Assembly: GCF_025787225.1 (NCBI RefSeq)
Contig: NZ_CP090958.1
Coordinates: forward strand, 1,765,856 to 1,829,855
DNA from: Saxibacter everestensis
Lineage (GTDB): Bacteria > Actinomycetota > Actinomycetes > Actinomycetales > Brevibacteriaceae
Direction: 5' to 3'
Length of the DNA stretch: 64,000 nucleotides
The number at the start of each line of letters is the position of its first letter. Position 1 is the stretch's first letter. Below the pieces are notes generated by a model that worked only from the letters and a program-made list of their open reading frames with translations, did not search any database and had not been told where the DNA came from. This document shows positions 59,590 to 62,793 of the stretch, piece after piece. Made by a program: the position numbers and the translations under genes.

Positions 59590-61038
59590 TTATGGCAGAT
59601 CGGCCTCGGGCCGAGAGGCCTCGGGTCGTGCGGCCTCGTTCCGGGAGGCCTCGTTCCGGGAGGCTGAGACACTTTGGCCCGCTGTGCCGCGGACGATCTC
59701 TCGCAACCGATCCAGTCGCGCCGCGACATCACGTTCCGCGCCGTGATCGGTCGGCCGGTAGTAGTCGCGGCCAACCAGCTCATCCGGCGGGTACTGCTGC
59801 TCGGCGACGCCATGCGGGTGGTCATGGGCGTAGCGATACCCGGCGCCGTGGCCCAGTTCCTTGGCCCCTGGATAGTGCGCGTCCCGCAGCTCGTCCGGCA
59901 CGCTGCCTGCTTTGCCGGCGCGCACATCGGCGATAGCGGCGTCCAAAGCGAGATAGGCAGCATTGGACTTGGGGGCAGTTGCAAGGTGCACGACCGCCTG
60001 AGCGAGCGGAATTCTGCCTTCGGGCATGCCGAGCATCTGTACCGCTTCGGCCGCCGCGACAGCGATCGGAAGCGCGGACGGGTCCGCCATGCCGATGTCT
60101 TCCGACGCCGAGATCATCACCCGACGCGCGATGAAGCGTGGGTCCTCCCCCGCCTCGATCATCCGGGCCAGATAGTGCAGCGAGGCGTCGACATCCGAAC
60201 CTCGGATCGACTTGATGAACGCACTCGTCACGTCGTAGTGCTGGTCGCCCTGCCGGTCGTAGCGCAGCACCGCGCGGTCCAGTGCCTGCTCGGCGTCGGC
60301 AACGGTCAGCGTCGCCGACTCTCCACCCGTAACCCGGGAAAGCGACACTCCCGCCGCGGCCTCAAGCGTGGTCAGCCCTCTGCGGGCGTCTGCCCCGGCC
60401 AGCTGCACTAGGTGTGCAAGCGCCTCGTCGTCGACCTGGACTGTCGAGTCCAGGCCACGCTCGTCCTCGATCGCACGCCGTAGCAACGCCTCGATGTGGC
60501 CGTCATTCAACGGACGAAGGGTCAACAGCAGGGACCGGGACAGCAAGGGCGAGATCACCGAGAACGACGGGTTTTCGGTGGTCGCTGCGACCAGCACGAT
60601 GAGCCGGTTTTCGACCCCGGGAAGCAGCGCGTCCTGCTGCGCCTTGGTGAAACGGTGAATCTCATCCAGGAACAGCACGGTTGTCATGCCGTAGAGGTCG
60701 CGGTCGTTCCGGGCGCCCTCCATCACCGCGCGTACGTCCTTGACCCCCGCGGTTATCGCGGACAGCTCGACGAACTTCCGGCCAGGAGCGCGAGAGACCA
60801 CGTGGGCGAGGGTGGTCTTACCAGTGCCGGGTGGCCCCCAGAGAATTATCGAGCTTGGACCGACCCGAGCATTTTCACCGGCTTCGACCAGCCGGCGCAA
60901 CGGCGACCCGGGTGCGATCAGGTGCTCCTGGCCGAGCAACTCGTCGAGAGTTCGGGGCCGCATCCGCACTGCCAGCGGAGCGTGCGAGCTCACCCCGGCG
61001 ATCGCATCCTCGTGCTGGGTGGAAAACAGGTCTGCCAT
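59590..61038 (-). CDS. rarA: Replication-associated recombination protein A (RarA/MgsA)
   Basis: A 482-aa AAA+ ATPase that acts at stalled replication forks. Walker A is [11 protein letters not shown], Walker B is [10 protein letters not shown], with the sensor segment [18 protein letters not shown]. The tetramerisation domain includes [38 protein letters not shown]. The C-terminal 25 residues are a repetitive tail ([24 protein letters not shown]), encoded by nearly identical 15-bp units. The ATG at 61038 (MADLFS) is preferred over 61068. Its upstream region is the first copy of the 540-bp-offset duplication. Confidence 0.95.
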
Positions 61039-61087
61039 GCTGATGACTCTATCCGCCGGCACCGACATCCAGGTTCGGAGTGTGCCC

Positions 61088-61212
61088 TTGCCGGCCTGAA
61101 TAGCTGGGTGTTGTAGGGAGACCTATCGGCTCTTCCCACTGTCAGTGTCCCCGCCTAGAGTTCCTGCTATGACACATAGCTTTCAGATCACCGTCGATTC
61201 GCCACAGCCGCA
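61088..61212 (+). repeat. first copy of a ~125-bp direct duplication (repeats at 61628-61752)
   Basis: 61088-61212 aligns without gaps to 61628-61752, an exact 540-bp offset, with about 8-10 substitutions. The repeated piece contains the codons for the C-terminal AGLNSWVL of the unknown ORF, then a promoter (TAGAGT at 61156-61161) and the first 10-11 codons of the VOC gene. Confidence 0.9.
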
Positions 61213-61222
61213 GAAACGATGA
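61169..61222 (+). pseudogene. truncated VOC-protein N-terminus acting as a leader ORF
   Basis: A 17-codon ORF (MTHSFQITVDSPQPQKR, stop) copies the beginning of the VOC protein at 61709 (MTYSFQITVDSSQPHEL). Its stop overlaps the ATG of the next ORF as ATGA. The TAGAGT hexamer ends 7 bp before its ATG, which would give a leaderless transcript. It therefore looks like a captured promoter plus leader peptide for the ORF at 61219. Confidence 0.7.
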
Positions 61223-61656
61223 CTAGTTCTCCAGATGAGGACGCGCTGATTGAGGCGATTACCTCGGCAAGGATCGAAGATGCCATCGCCTTGGCGGCAC
61301 GGTTGAACCCGGACGTTCTCTTTGATCTGATCTTCGACGCCACCGATGACCAACCCGCGGAGGAGTTCCTCACATTCCTCATGGCATACGCGGATCATGC
61401 CGAGAGCGACTATCAAAAGTTATGCATACTCGACACTGCCCGAAGTCTCCTCGTGACGTCGCTATCTCCGTTGAAGGACGCAGATCGGCGAGCCCTTGAA
61501 ATCAATTTCAGGTCGTGCGAGCTGACCCGCGAACTGCTGATTTCCAGCTTGCGCGACTTGGAGCACTTCACTCACACCCCTGAGATGTTGCTGACTAAAG
61601 AGCAACAAGCCAGATACCGGCAGTATGTTGCCGGCCTGAATAGCTGGGTCTTGTAG
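61219..61656 (+). CDS. Unrecognised small acidic helical protein within a tandem duplication
   Basis: A 145-aa protein of no family I recognise. It is acidic and predicted largely helical (EEFLTFLMAYADHAESDYQKLCILDTARSLL, SCELTRELLISSLRDLEHFTHTPEMLLTKEQQARY), with no signal peptide, membrane helix or catalytic motif. Its base composition is clearly lower in GC than the neighbours. Its start overlaps the truncated VOC leader by ATGA. The codons for its C-terminal AGLNSWVL are also found in the first repeat copy at 61088-61113, so a paralogous copy once lay upstream. An immunity-like or regulatory role is conceivable but not shown. Confidence 0.6.
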   Translation: MTSSPDEDALIEAITSARIEDAIALAARLNPDVLFDLIFDATDDQPAEEFLTFLMAYADHAESDYQKLCILDTARSLLVTSLSPLKDADRRALEINFRSCELTRELLISSLRDLEHFTHTPEMLLTKEQQARYRQYVAGLNSWVL

Positions 61657-61752
61657 GGAGACCTATCGACTCTTCCCACTGTCAGTGGCCCCGCCTAGAG
61701 TTCCTGCTATGACATACAGCTTTCAAATCACCGTCGATTCATCCCAGCCGCA
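61628..61752 (+). repeat. second copy of the ~125-bp direct duplication
   Basis: Gapless partner of 61088-61212. Here the three parts are intact: the end of the unknown ORF, the TAGAGT promoter (61696-61701) and the genuine start of the VOC gene at 61709. This copy therefore looks ancestral and the 61088 copy derived. Confidence 0.9.
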
Positions 61753-62140
61753 CGAGCTCGCCGATTGGTGGGCGGAGACCCTGGAGTGGGAAGTGGAACC
61801 ATCCGACGAAGCCTTCATTTCCTCCATGGTCGAGCAAGGCTACGCATCCGAGGCCGACACTATGAGACACAACGGCACGCTCGTCTGGAAGGCCGGCTCC
61901 GGGATCCTGCCGCCGGGCGAGGCGTCGACGGCCGAGCGCATCCTGTTCCAGTACGTGTCTGAGCCAAAGACCGTGAAGAACCGGATGCACCTGGATCTGC
62001 GGGTCGGACCGGAGAACCACGCCCGGATCCGCGCCGCCCTCGAAGCCCGCGGCGCAACTTTCGTCCACGACGGCGCACAGGGCCCCTACAGCTGGGTCAC
62101 GATGCAGGACCCACAGGGCAATGAGTTCTGTCTGACCTGA
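61709..62140 (+). CDS. VOC-family (glyoxalase-like) protein
   Basis: A 143-aa protein with one glyoxalase-like vicinal oxygen chelate domain. It begins TYSFQITVDSSQPHELADWWAETLEWEVE and ends WVTMQDPQGNEFCLT, with conserved beta-alpha-beta repeats and HLDLRV in the second half. A single-domain protein would dimerise. Substrate unknown; such domains serve glyoxalases, resistance proteins and dioxygenases. The promoter hexamer TAGAGT 7 bp before the ATG suggests a leaderless mRNA. The first codons are duplicated upstream at 61169. Confidence 0.85.
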   Translation: MTYSFQITVDSSQPHELADWWAETLEWEVEPSDEAFISSMVEQGYASEADTMRHNGTLVWKAGSGILPPGEASTAERILFQYVSEPKTVKNRMHLDLRVGPENHARIRAALEARGATFVHDGAQGPYSWVTMQDPQGNEFCLT

Positions 62141-62181: not shown

Positions 62182-62199
62182 GTTTACATTCCTGTAAAC
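62182..62199. promoter_or_regulatory. inverted repeat upstream of the toxin-antitoxin pair
   Basis: GTTTACA (62182-62188), TTCC spacer, TGTAAAC (62193-62199): a perfect 7-bp inverted repeat, 7 bp before the antitoxin ATG, in an AT-rich pocket. This is the expected site for autoregulation by the antitoxin. Confidence 0.7.
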
Positions 62200-62206
62200 T
62201 GAAGGC

Positions 62207-62449
62207 ATGCTGCGAGTAAGTGATGACACACGCGAGCAGGTACAGCGCCTCGCCCGAGACGAGTTCGGGGGCGCGAGTGCCGATGAGACGATCCGACGCC
62301 TGCTCGATGAACACTGGGAGGCCGCCGCGCTCGCGGCCGTCGAGCGGTACCGGATCGACAACCCGCAGGGCTGGGCCGACTATCTCGCCGCGGCCGAGAA
62401 CCTGGCAGGGGCGGACGCGCCAATCACCGACGAGTGGTCGCCGAGTTGA
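62207..62449 (+). CDS. Type II antitoxin (MazE-like, ribbon-helix-helix type)
   Basis: An 80-aa protein beginning MLRVSDDTREQVQRLARDEFGGASADETIRRLLDEHW, the pattern of a small ribbon-helix-helix DNA-binding domain. A flexible acidic C-terminus (ENLAGADAPITDEWSPS) would bind the toxin. It overlaps the toxin gene by 16 bp and is preceded by an inverted-repeat operator. Its role is neutralising the MazF-like toxin and repressing the operon. Confidence 0.85.
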   Translation: MLRVSDDTREQVQRLARDEFGGASADETIRRLLDEHWEAAALAAVERYRIDNPQGWADYLAAAENLAGADAPITDEWSPS

Positions 62450-62793
62450 GCCGACCGCCCATTGAGCCTGGCTCCGTGTGGTTCTGCGACTTCGACCCGG
62501 TCCGTGGTCGCGAGCAAGGCAAGGATCGACCCGCTCTGGTGGTCTCCTCAGCATTCCATTTGAACCTGACCCGCGGCGCGCTGGTGTCGGTGCTGCCGCT
62601 GACGTCGGTAGAGCGGCCTGGTTGGCTGCATCGGATTCCGGTCGCCAATGCGAGTGGATGGGTGATTACCGAACAGGTTCGGACCATAGCTATGGAGCGC
62701 TTTCGCAGGCCGGCGCCGGAGATCACACTGGCCAAGGACGAACTCGCCGAGGTGCGGCGAGTGCTCGCGAAGATGCTTCTCATCTCGTCCTGA
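62434..62793 (+). CDS. MazF/PemK-family endoribonuclease toxin
   Basis: A 119-aa protein of the CcdB/PemK fold. Conserved segments are EPGSVWFCDFDPVRGREQGKDRPALVVSS (including the Arg of the active site), VSVLPLTSVERPGWLHRIPV and GWVITEQVRTIAMERF (with the catalytic Thr region). Such toxins cut single-stranded mRNA. GTG at 62434 gives the full N-terminus; a TTG at 62446 is an alternative. It pairs with the antitoxin immediately upstream. Confidence 0.88.
   Translation: MVAELSRPPIEPGSVWFCDFDPVRGREQGKDRPALVVSSAFHLNLTRGALVSVLPLTSVERPGWLHRIPVANASGWVITEQVRTIAMERFRRPAPEITLAKDELAEVRRVLAKMLLISS

Follow-up and report, generated by a model that had tools for sequence, protein, structure and literature searches.

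How newly arisen genes come to be expressed is a standing question, and the locus examined here poses it in a form in which the likely source of the promoter can still be made out at a distance of 540 bp and the regulon concerned is definable from sequence. Within the window, that is, the whole 64,000-nt stretch of Saxibacter everestensis DNA that was analysed, a segment of 125 bp occurs twice on the forward strand, as copy 1 (61088–61212, +) and copy 2 (61628–61752, +). Pairwise comparison of the two copies gave nine substitutions in 125 nt (93% identity) and no gaps at an exact offset of 540 bp, which bears out the repeat that the sequence-only reading had reported. The ends of the repeat are sharp, as six ten-base blocks beyond each end match at just 0–5 of 10 positions, and a search of the organism's own genome (4,048,523 bases, one contig) recovered the full-length repeat at these two places only, the other six matches being 14–23 bp long. 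The repeat search grouped the two copies as one family with two members, and a 21-mer taken from it occurs twice in the window versus 0.00 expected. Each copy holds, in this order, the end of the frame (AGLNSWVL-stop) of an orphan ORF designated X or, in copy 1, of an X-like frame, the hexamer TAGAGT and the start of the frame of a VOC gene, as had been read earlier, but the 10–11 VOC codons then proposed were too few: copy 1 carries the first 14 VOC codons, and the VOC-derived identity reaches the second base of codon 15 (61169–61212, 44 nt, six differences). Changes between the copies fall on 2 of 52 intergenic positions and 6 of 44 positions in the leader codons, a difference that is not significant (p = 0.14).

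Two trivial sources of such a repeat were considered and rejected. An assembly artefact is unlikely, given a genome assembled as a single contig and two copies that are not identical (9 of 125 sites changed). A mobile element or target-site duplication was likewise set aside, since the profile-named ORFs between rarA and aspS (VOC, a PemK-type toxin and a siderophore-binding protein) are not transposases or integrases; moreover, target-site duplications are usually shorter than 125 bp.

Inspection of the sequence common to both copies indicated that TAGAGT, previously taken as the promoter by itself, makes up just the −10 region of a longer element with the order TGTCAGTG, 8 nt, TAGAGT, 7 nt, ATG; TAGAGT is indeed present in both copies, but the DNA-damage class of the promoter had been missed. 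The boxes and the 7-nt spacing are identical in the two copies despite the nine differences overall. The copy 1 promoter lies at 61140–61161 (+; TGTCAGTG-N8-TAGAGT with an ATG 7 nt downstream) and the copy 2 promoter at 61680–61701 (+; VOC ATG 7 nt downstream), and the third site of the cluster, at 61046–61067 on the minus strand, faces away from them towards rarA. All three are exact matches to TGTCRGTG-N8-TANNNT and are the only ones in the window, in which 0.01 would be expected. As given in the published extracts, the consensus of RecA-independent DNA-damage promoters is tTGTCRgtg-8 nt-TannnT (PMC5656591), and the UV-inducible recA promoter of Streptomyces rimosus has a like arrangement, TTGTCAGTGGC-N6-TAGggT (PMC2375139). 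PafBC is described as the activator of these RecA-NDp promoters (PMC6789036, PMC8223512, PMC11804915); it acts via the RecA-NDp motif according to its in vivo binding sites (PMC6789036), is activated by ssDNA, and has a −26 motif described for it (PMC11804915). Judged from its sequence, the assignment of the copied promoter to the published RecA-NDp/PafBC class is well supported.

Across the organism's own genome, 33 exact TGTCRGTG-N8-TANNNT sites were found versus one for the reversed control pattern, and the pattern was present in 36 of 39 genomes, own included, with the own genome holding the most sites. The downstream genes were read for 30 of the 33 sites. The 30 include rarA, X and VOC themselves; another 17 were scanned with profiles, which named recA, dinB, uvrA, uvrB, dnaE, an AlkZ-like glycosylase, a gyrB-type topoisomerase, a protein that contains a UvrB-interaction domain and reads as Mfd, and further a YgjP-like protein, a GNAT protein and seven DUF222 proteins. 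That leaves ten sites: two lie before DUF222 genes included in this count, and the other eight were read without a profile test, several genes of the latter group reading as having no repair role; one of the sites read precedes no convincing gene. By profiles, pafB (WYL, WCX) and pafC (HTH_PafC, WYL) adjoin each other within the pafA cluster, the pafB call resting on WYL plus WCX and on the position before pafC. When distances of 4–10 nt past the −10 box were searched, an ATG or GTG was located 6 or 7 nt past the box at 17 of the 30 sites, a leaderless geometry; 16 of these 17 starts open an ORF of at least 59 codons, the sole exception being copy 1, whose ORF has just 17 codons. Two side observations belong to this set of sites, namely that seven DUF222 genes sit behind PafBC-type promoters, and that double sites 93 bp apart occur at two places of contig C1 (848501/848594 and 3003341/3003434).

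Copy 2 is in functional position at the beginning of the VOC gene (61709–62140, +), which encodes a protein of 143 aa matching the profile PF18029 Glyoxalase_6 with 80.5 bits at a cut-off of 23.6. For comparison, 80 named VOC homologues were used, which are mutually related and were chosen by similarity and are thus not independent. A TANNNT lies 5–9 nt upstream of 70 of the 78 usable VOC starts (two of the 80 homologues being without a usable start), versus 2.3% of all 13,764 ATGs that these loci contain. A PafBC-type box (no more than one mismatch) was found at the start of 14 of the 80 (11 Blastococcus, 2 Actinoalloteichus and 1 Segeticoccus) and at no other of the 13,736 ATGs there. Since VOC homologues of these three genera carry it, the promoter is probably the VOC gene's own. 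In the Arthrobacter-type homologues (Arthrobacter, Pseudarthrobacter and Paenarthrobacter, judged from record titles; n = 53), 50 retain a TANNNT, and a TGTCRGTG box was found in none, even with three mismatches allowed; with the box in 14 of 80 homologues but in none of these 53, the link of VOC to DNA damage is therefore lineage-limited. In some actinobacteria, a pfam18029 gene has been reported to lie upstream of siwR, which encodes a genotoxic-stress regulator (PMC10693628), and the family has thus been tied to genotoxic-stress loci before, though not via PafBC in what is described there.

The same homologues bear on the direction of copying. His-Glu-Leu at VOC codons 15–17 is invariant in all 80 of them and is replaced in copy 1 by Gln-Lys-Arg, and codon 3 is His in copy 1, as in 1 of 80 homologues, versus Tyr in copy 2, as in 10 of 80. 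Because the invariant triplet is absent from copy 1 and its His at codon 3 is rare, copy 2 is taken as the likely source; alternatively, copy 1 could have arrived already diverged.

Downstream of copy 1 lies X (61219–61656, +), an ORF of 145 aa with gene-like codon use. Its GC content is 54.6% versus 64.9% for the window, with 57/39/68% at the three codon positions. An ORF as long as X was obtained in just 3 of 2000 shuffles of its region, and its codon score of 0.10 per codon was reached in none of 1000 shuffles (maximum −0.10), although it is below those of the neighbours (VOC 0.32, an antitoxin-like ORF 0.26 and the toxin 0.17). On these grounds X looks coding. Searches for its relatives gave no significant match among protein families (Pfam best E 0.17, NCBIfam none, PADLOC none, PHROGs best 0.15) or PDB sequences (best 0.21), and Foldseek against the PDB returned nothing at E 0.001 (best 0.62); an AlphaFold model of X, made without an alignment, is mostly helical and with a mean pLDDT of 60 too weak to use. 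No relatives were found in plasmids, phages and viral contigs, nor in genome contigs, the viral and genome-contig scans being of a kind that detects close relatives only. Among 60 genomes of the family X occurs in the own genome only. Weak matches appeared in 3 genomes besides the own among 396 of the order and in 6 among 394 of the class, and with per-genome E-values of 0.0005–0.006 these were taken as chance for so many genomes and rejected as true relatives.

Within its own genome, X had no paralogue even when matches up to E = 10 were admitted, and flanks of up to 4 kb on either side of the 80 named VOC homologues (the best 80 of 86 confirmed) contained no X-like gene. No relic of X or VOC was seen in the 49-bp interval that separates rarA from copy 1 either; the ungapped comparison gave 25 of 49 matches, where shuffles averaged 23.2 and 24 of 200 reached 25. 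These results leave unsupported the earlier claim that a paralogue of X once stood upstream. Nor is one needed, as the shared AGLNSWVL-stop is just the last eight codons of X: a patch starting near the X end carries them along, or an inserted ORF reads into the flank, and a lost paralogue is not required in either case.

Copy 1 stops 6 bp short of the X start codon, and the ATG behind its promoter, 7 nt past the −10 box and so within the 6–7 nt seen at 17 of 30 sites, is the predicted start of a leader ORF of 17 codons plus stop (61169–61222, +; MTHSFQITVDSPQPQKR), the TGA of which overlaps the X ATG as ATGA. The sequence-only reading had described a VOC gene cut off after 17 codons and fused by ATGA to a 145-aa ORF; the join holds, but only 14 codons are VOC-derived and the last three differ. 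By eye, no evident Shine-Dalgarno sequence precedes the X ATG. Leaderless small ORFs coupled via RTGA to the next gene have been described in Mycobacterium tuberculosis (23 of 220; PMC4633059), and the ATGA join is therefore a known mode of coupling. With 17 codons and an ATGA overlap, the leader falls within the definition of such small ORFs (5–50 codons, RTGA overlap with the next ORF).

The genes around the repeat were also compared with other loci. The rarA (MgsA) gene, encoding an AAA+ recombination factor, lies at 59590–61038 on the minus strand, was identified by the MgsA_C profile and faces away from the repeat. At other rarA loci a RecA-NDp/PafBC-type promoter with at most one mismatch was found in 0 of 29 (59 genomes searched), although the site of rarA here is exact, and with the motif absent at 29 of 30 rarA loci, the rarA link is therefore special to this genome. 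Downstream of VOC follow an ORF judged antitoxin-like from its position alone (62207–62449; no family in the profile scan), a MazF/PemK-type toxin (62434–62793) and a gene for a siderophore-binding protein, past which aspS, as read from the sequence, lies beyond the window end. None of rarA, aspS, rpsD, toxin–antitoxin or siderophore genes was found beside VOC in the 80 named loci (up to 4 kb each side, best 80 of 86). Two further features of the surroundings were observed. A perfect inverted repeat, GTTTACA-TTCC-TGTAAAC (62182–62199), stands directly before the antitoxin-like ORF and may be the toxin–antitoxin module's own operator. At the 3′-end of rarA, three imperfect 30-nt repeats in 15-nt steps (59601–59660) give the protein a repeated EASRNEA/RPEA tail.

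Taken as a whole, the model that a leaderless DNA-damage (PafBC) promoter together with a VOC-derived leader was copied before the orphan X, placing X in the regulon, is in our judgement probable. According to this model, the VOC gene is probably an old PafBC target with the leaderless promoter TGTCAGTG-N8-TAGAGT-N7-ATG, and the 125-bp patch, from eight codons before the X end to VOC codon 15, would have been copied once more upstream, ending before the X start. Transcription of X is predicted to start on the ATG itself, at position 61169, and ribosomes would first translate the 17-codon, mostly VOC-derived leader, halt at its TGA and restart at the overlapping X ATG. Activation of PafBC by ssDNA would then induce X, VOC and the divergent rarA together, and X would have been brought under the DNA-damage response by the copy. 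The earlier proposal that recombination built a new transcription unit thus remains the natural reading, with the orphan ORF receiving a copied promoter and leader peptide. As for the history, that the patch was copied in a single event is plausible, although we rate it at slightly less than an even chance.

Other histories, and other ways of reading the promoter, can be weighed against this model. It is improbable that the locus is what remains of an array in which an X-VOC pair was tandemly duplicated and then lost all but the last codons of the first X and everything past codon 14 of the first VOC, so that a remnant promoter was left before the second X. Such an array would account for the X frame end and the VOC start standing in correct order and spacing within copy 1, but it needs one duplication and two deletions where other routes need fewer steps, and the paralogue, the relic in the 49-bp left flank and the X-like gene near the 80 VOC homologues that were searched for were all absent; neither a second X nor a remnant of its body, the mark of a tandem X array, was present in the own genome or the left flank. 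Somewhat unlikely, too, is an arrival of X from outside, in which incoming DNA with X and a diverged 125-bp copy recombined homologously with the resident rarA–VOC region at one end and was joined to it illegitimately at the other; here the 7% difference between the copies would be allelic, and the X end may be captured flank. The AT-rich X (54.6% GC versus 64.9%) without relatives in the family (1 of 60, the own genome) points in that direction, as does the finding that VOC is never beside rarA in the 80 homologue loci, so that the rarA–aspS stretch looks like a site of gene acquisition. On the other hand, low GC is usual for orphan genes of any origin, and the donor state was not found in the own genome, the one genome in which the 125-bp DNA was searched.

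Separate from these three histories is the question of whether the copy does anything at all. X could be decaying or unexpressed, with copy 1 driving a useless leader only, and the lack of relatives, a codon signal weaker than that of the neighbours and the low mean pLDDT of 60 fit such an inert copy. We nevertheless give it a rather small chance, as X keeps its 145-codon frame (3 of 2000 shuffles) and a codon score unmatched in 1000 shuffles, and the boxes and 7-nt spacing are unchanged though the copies differ at 9 of 125 positions. Finally, a factor other than PafBC, such as ClgR, might mainly read the promoter box, given that ClgR has been reported on the recA P1 region of M. smegmatis (PMC5656591). 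This is very unlikely, as PafBC is reported to act through the RecA-NDp motif (PMC6789036) and both pafB and pafC are encoded here.

Set beside known systems, the sites resemble the actinobacterial RecA-NDp/PafBC promoters of the recA P1 type in their boxes, 8-nt spacing, repair-gene neighbours and accompanying pafB and pafC, and differ from the usual ones in that two of them are mutual copies, one serving an orphan via another gene's leader. The leader resembles the leaderless RTGA-coupled small ORFs (PMC4633059) in its ATG at the predicted 5′-end, its 17 codons and its ATGA join; unlike those described there, it is derived from the adjacent enzyme gene as a shortened copy, so that its origin is visible, and its 5′-end is a predicted one. 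The direct repeat and fixed spacing recall tandem gene duplication arrays, in which respect the locus differs by having the promoter patch alone doubled, not X or VOC. Among the matches listed for literature on PafBC (with glyoxalase, leaderless, duplication and horizontal transfer), on gene birth with promoter capture and on promoter copying, this arrangement was not reported.

The model predicts that X, VOC and rarA rise together upon DNA damage, with 5′-ends at their ATGs. The VOC (PF18029) family is a likely member of the DNA-damage regulon in some actinobacterial genera. We hold it as a tentative possibility that a young orphan gene was wired to the DNA-damage response in one recombination step, the patch giving a leaderless PafBC promoter and a translated leader together, by which a gene lacking a ribosome-binding site of its own would have acquired regulated transcription and translation at once. 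If the model is true, copying a leaderless promoter along with a few codons can provide the transcription start as well as the translation start, and leaderless promoters may be portable cassettes that recruit new genes into actinobacterial regulons.
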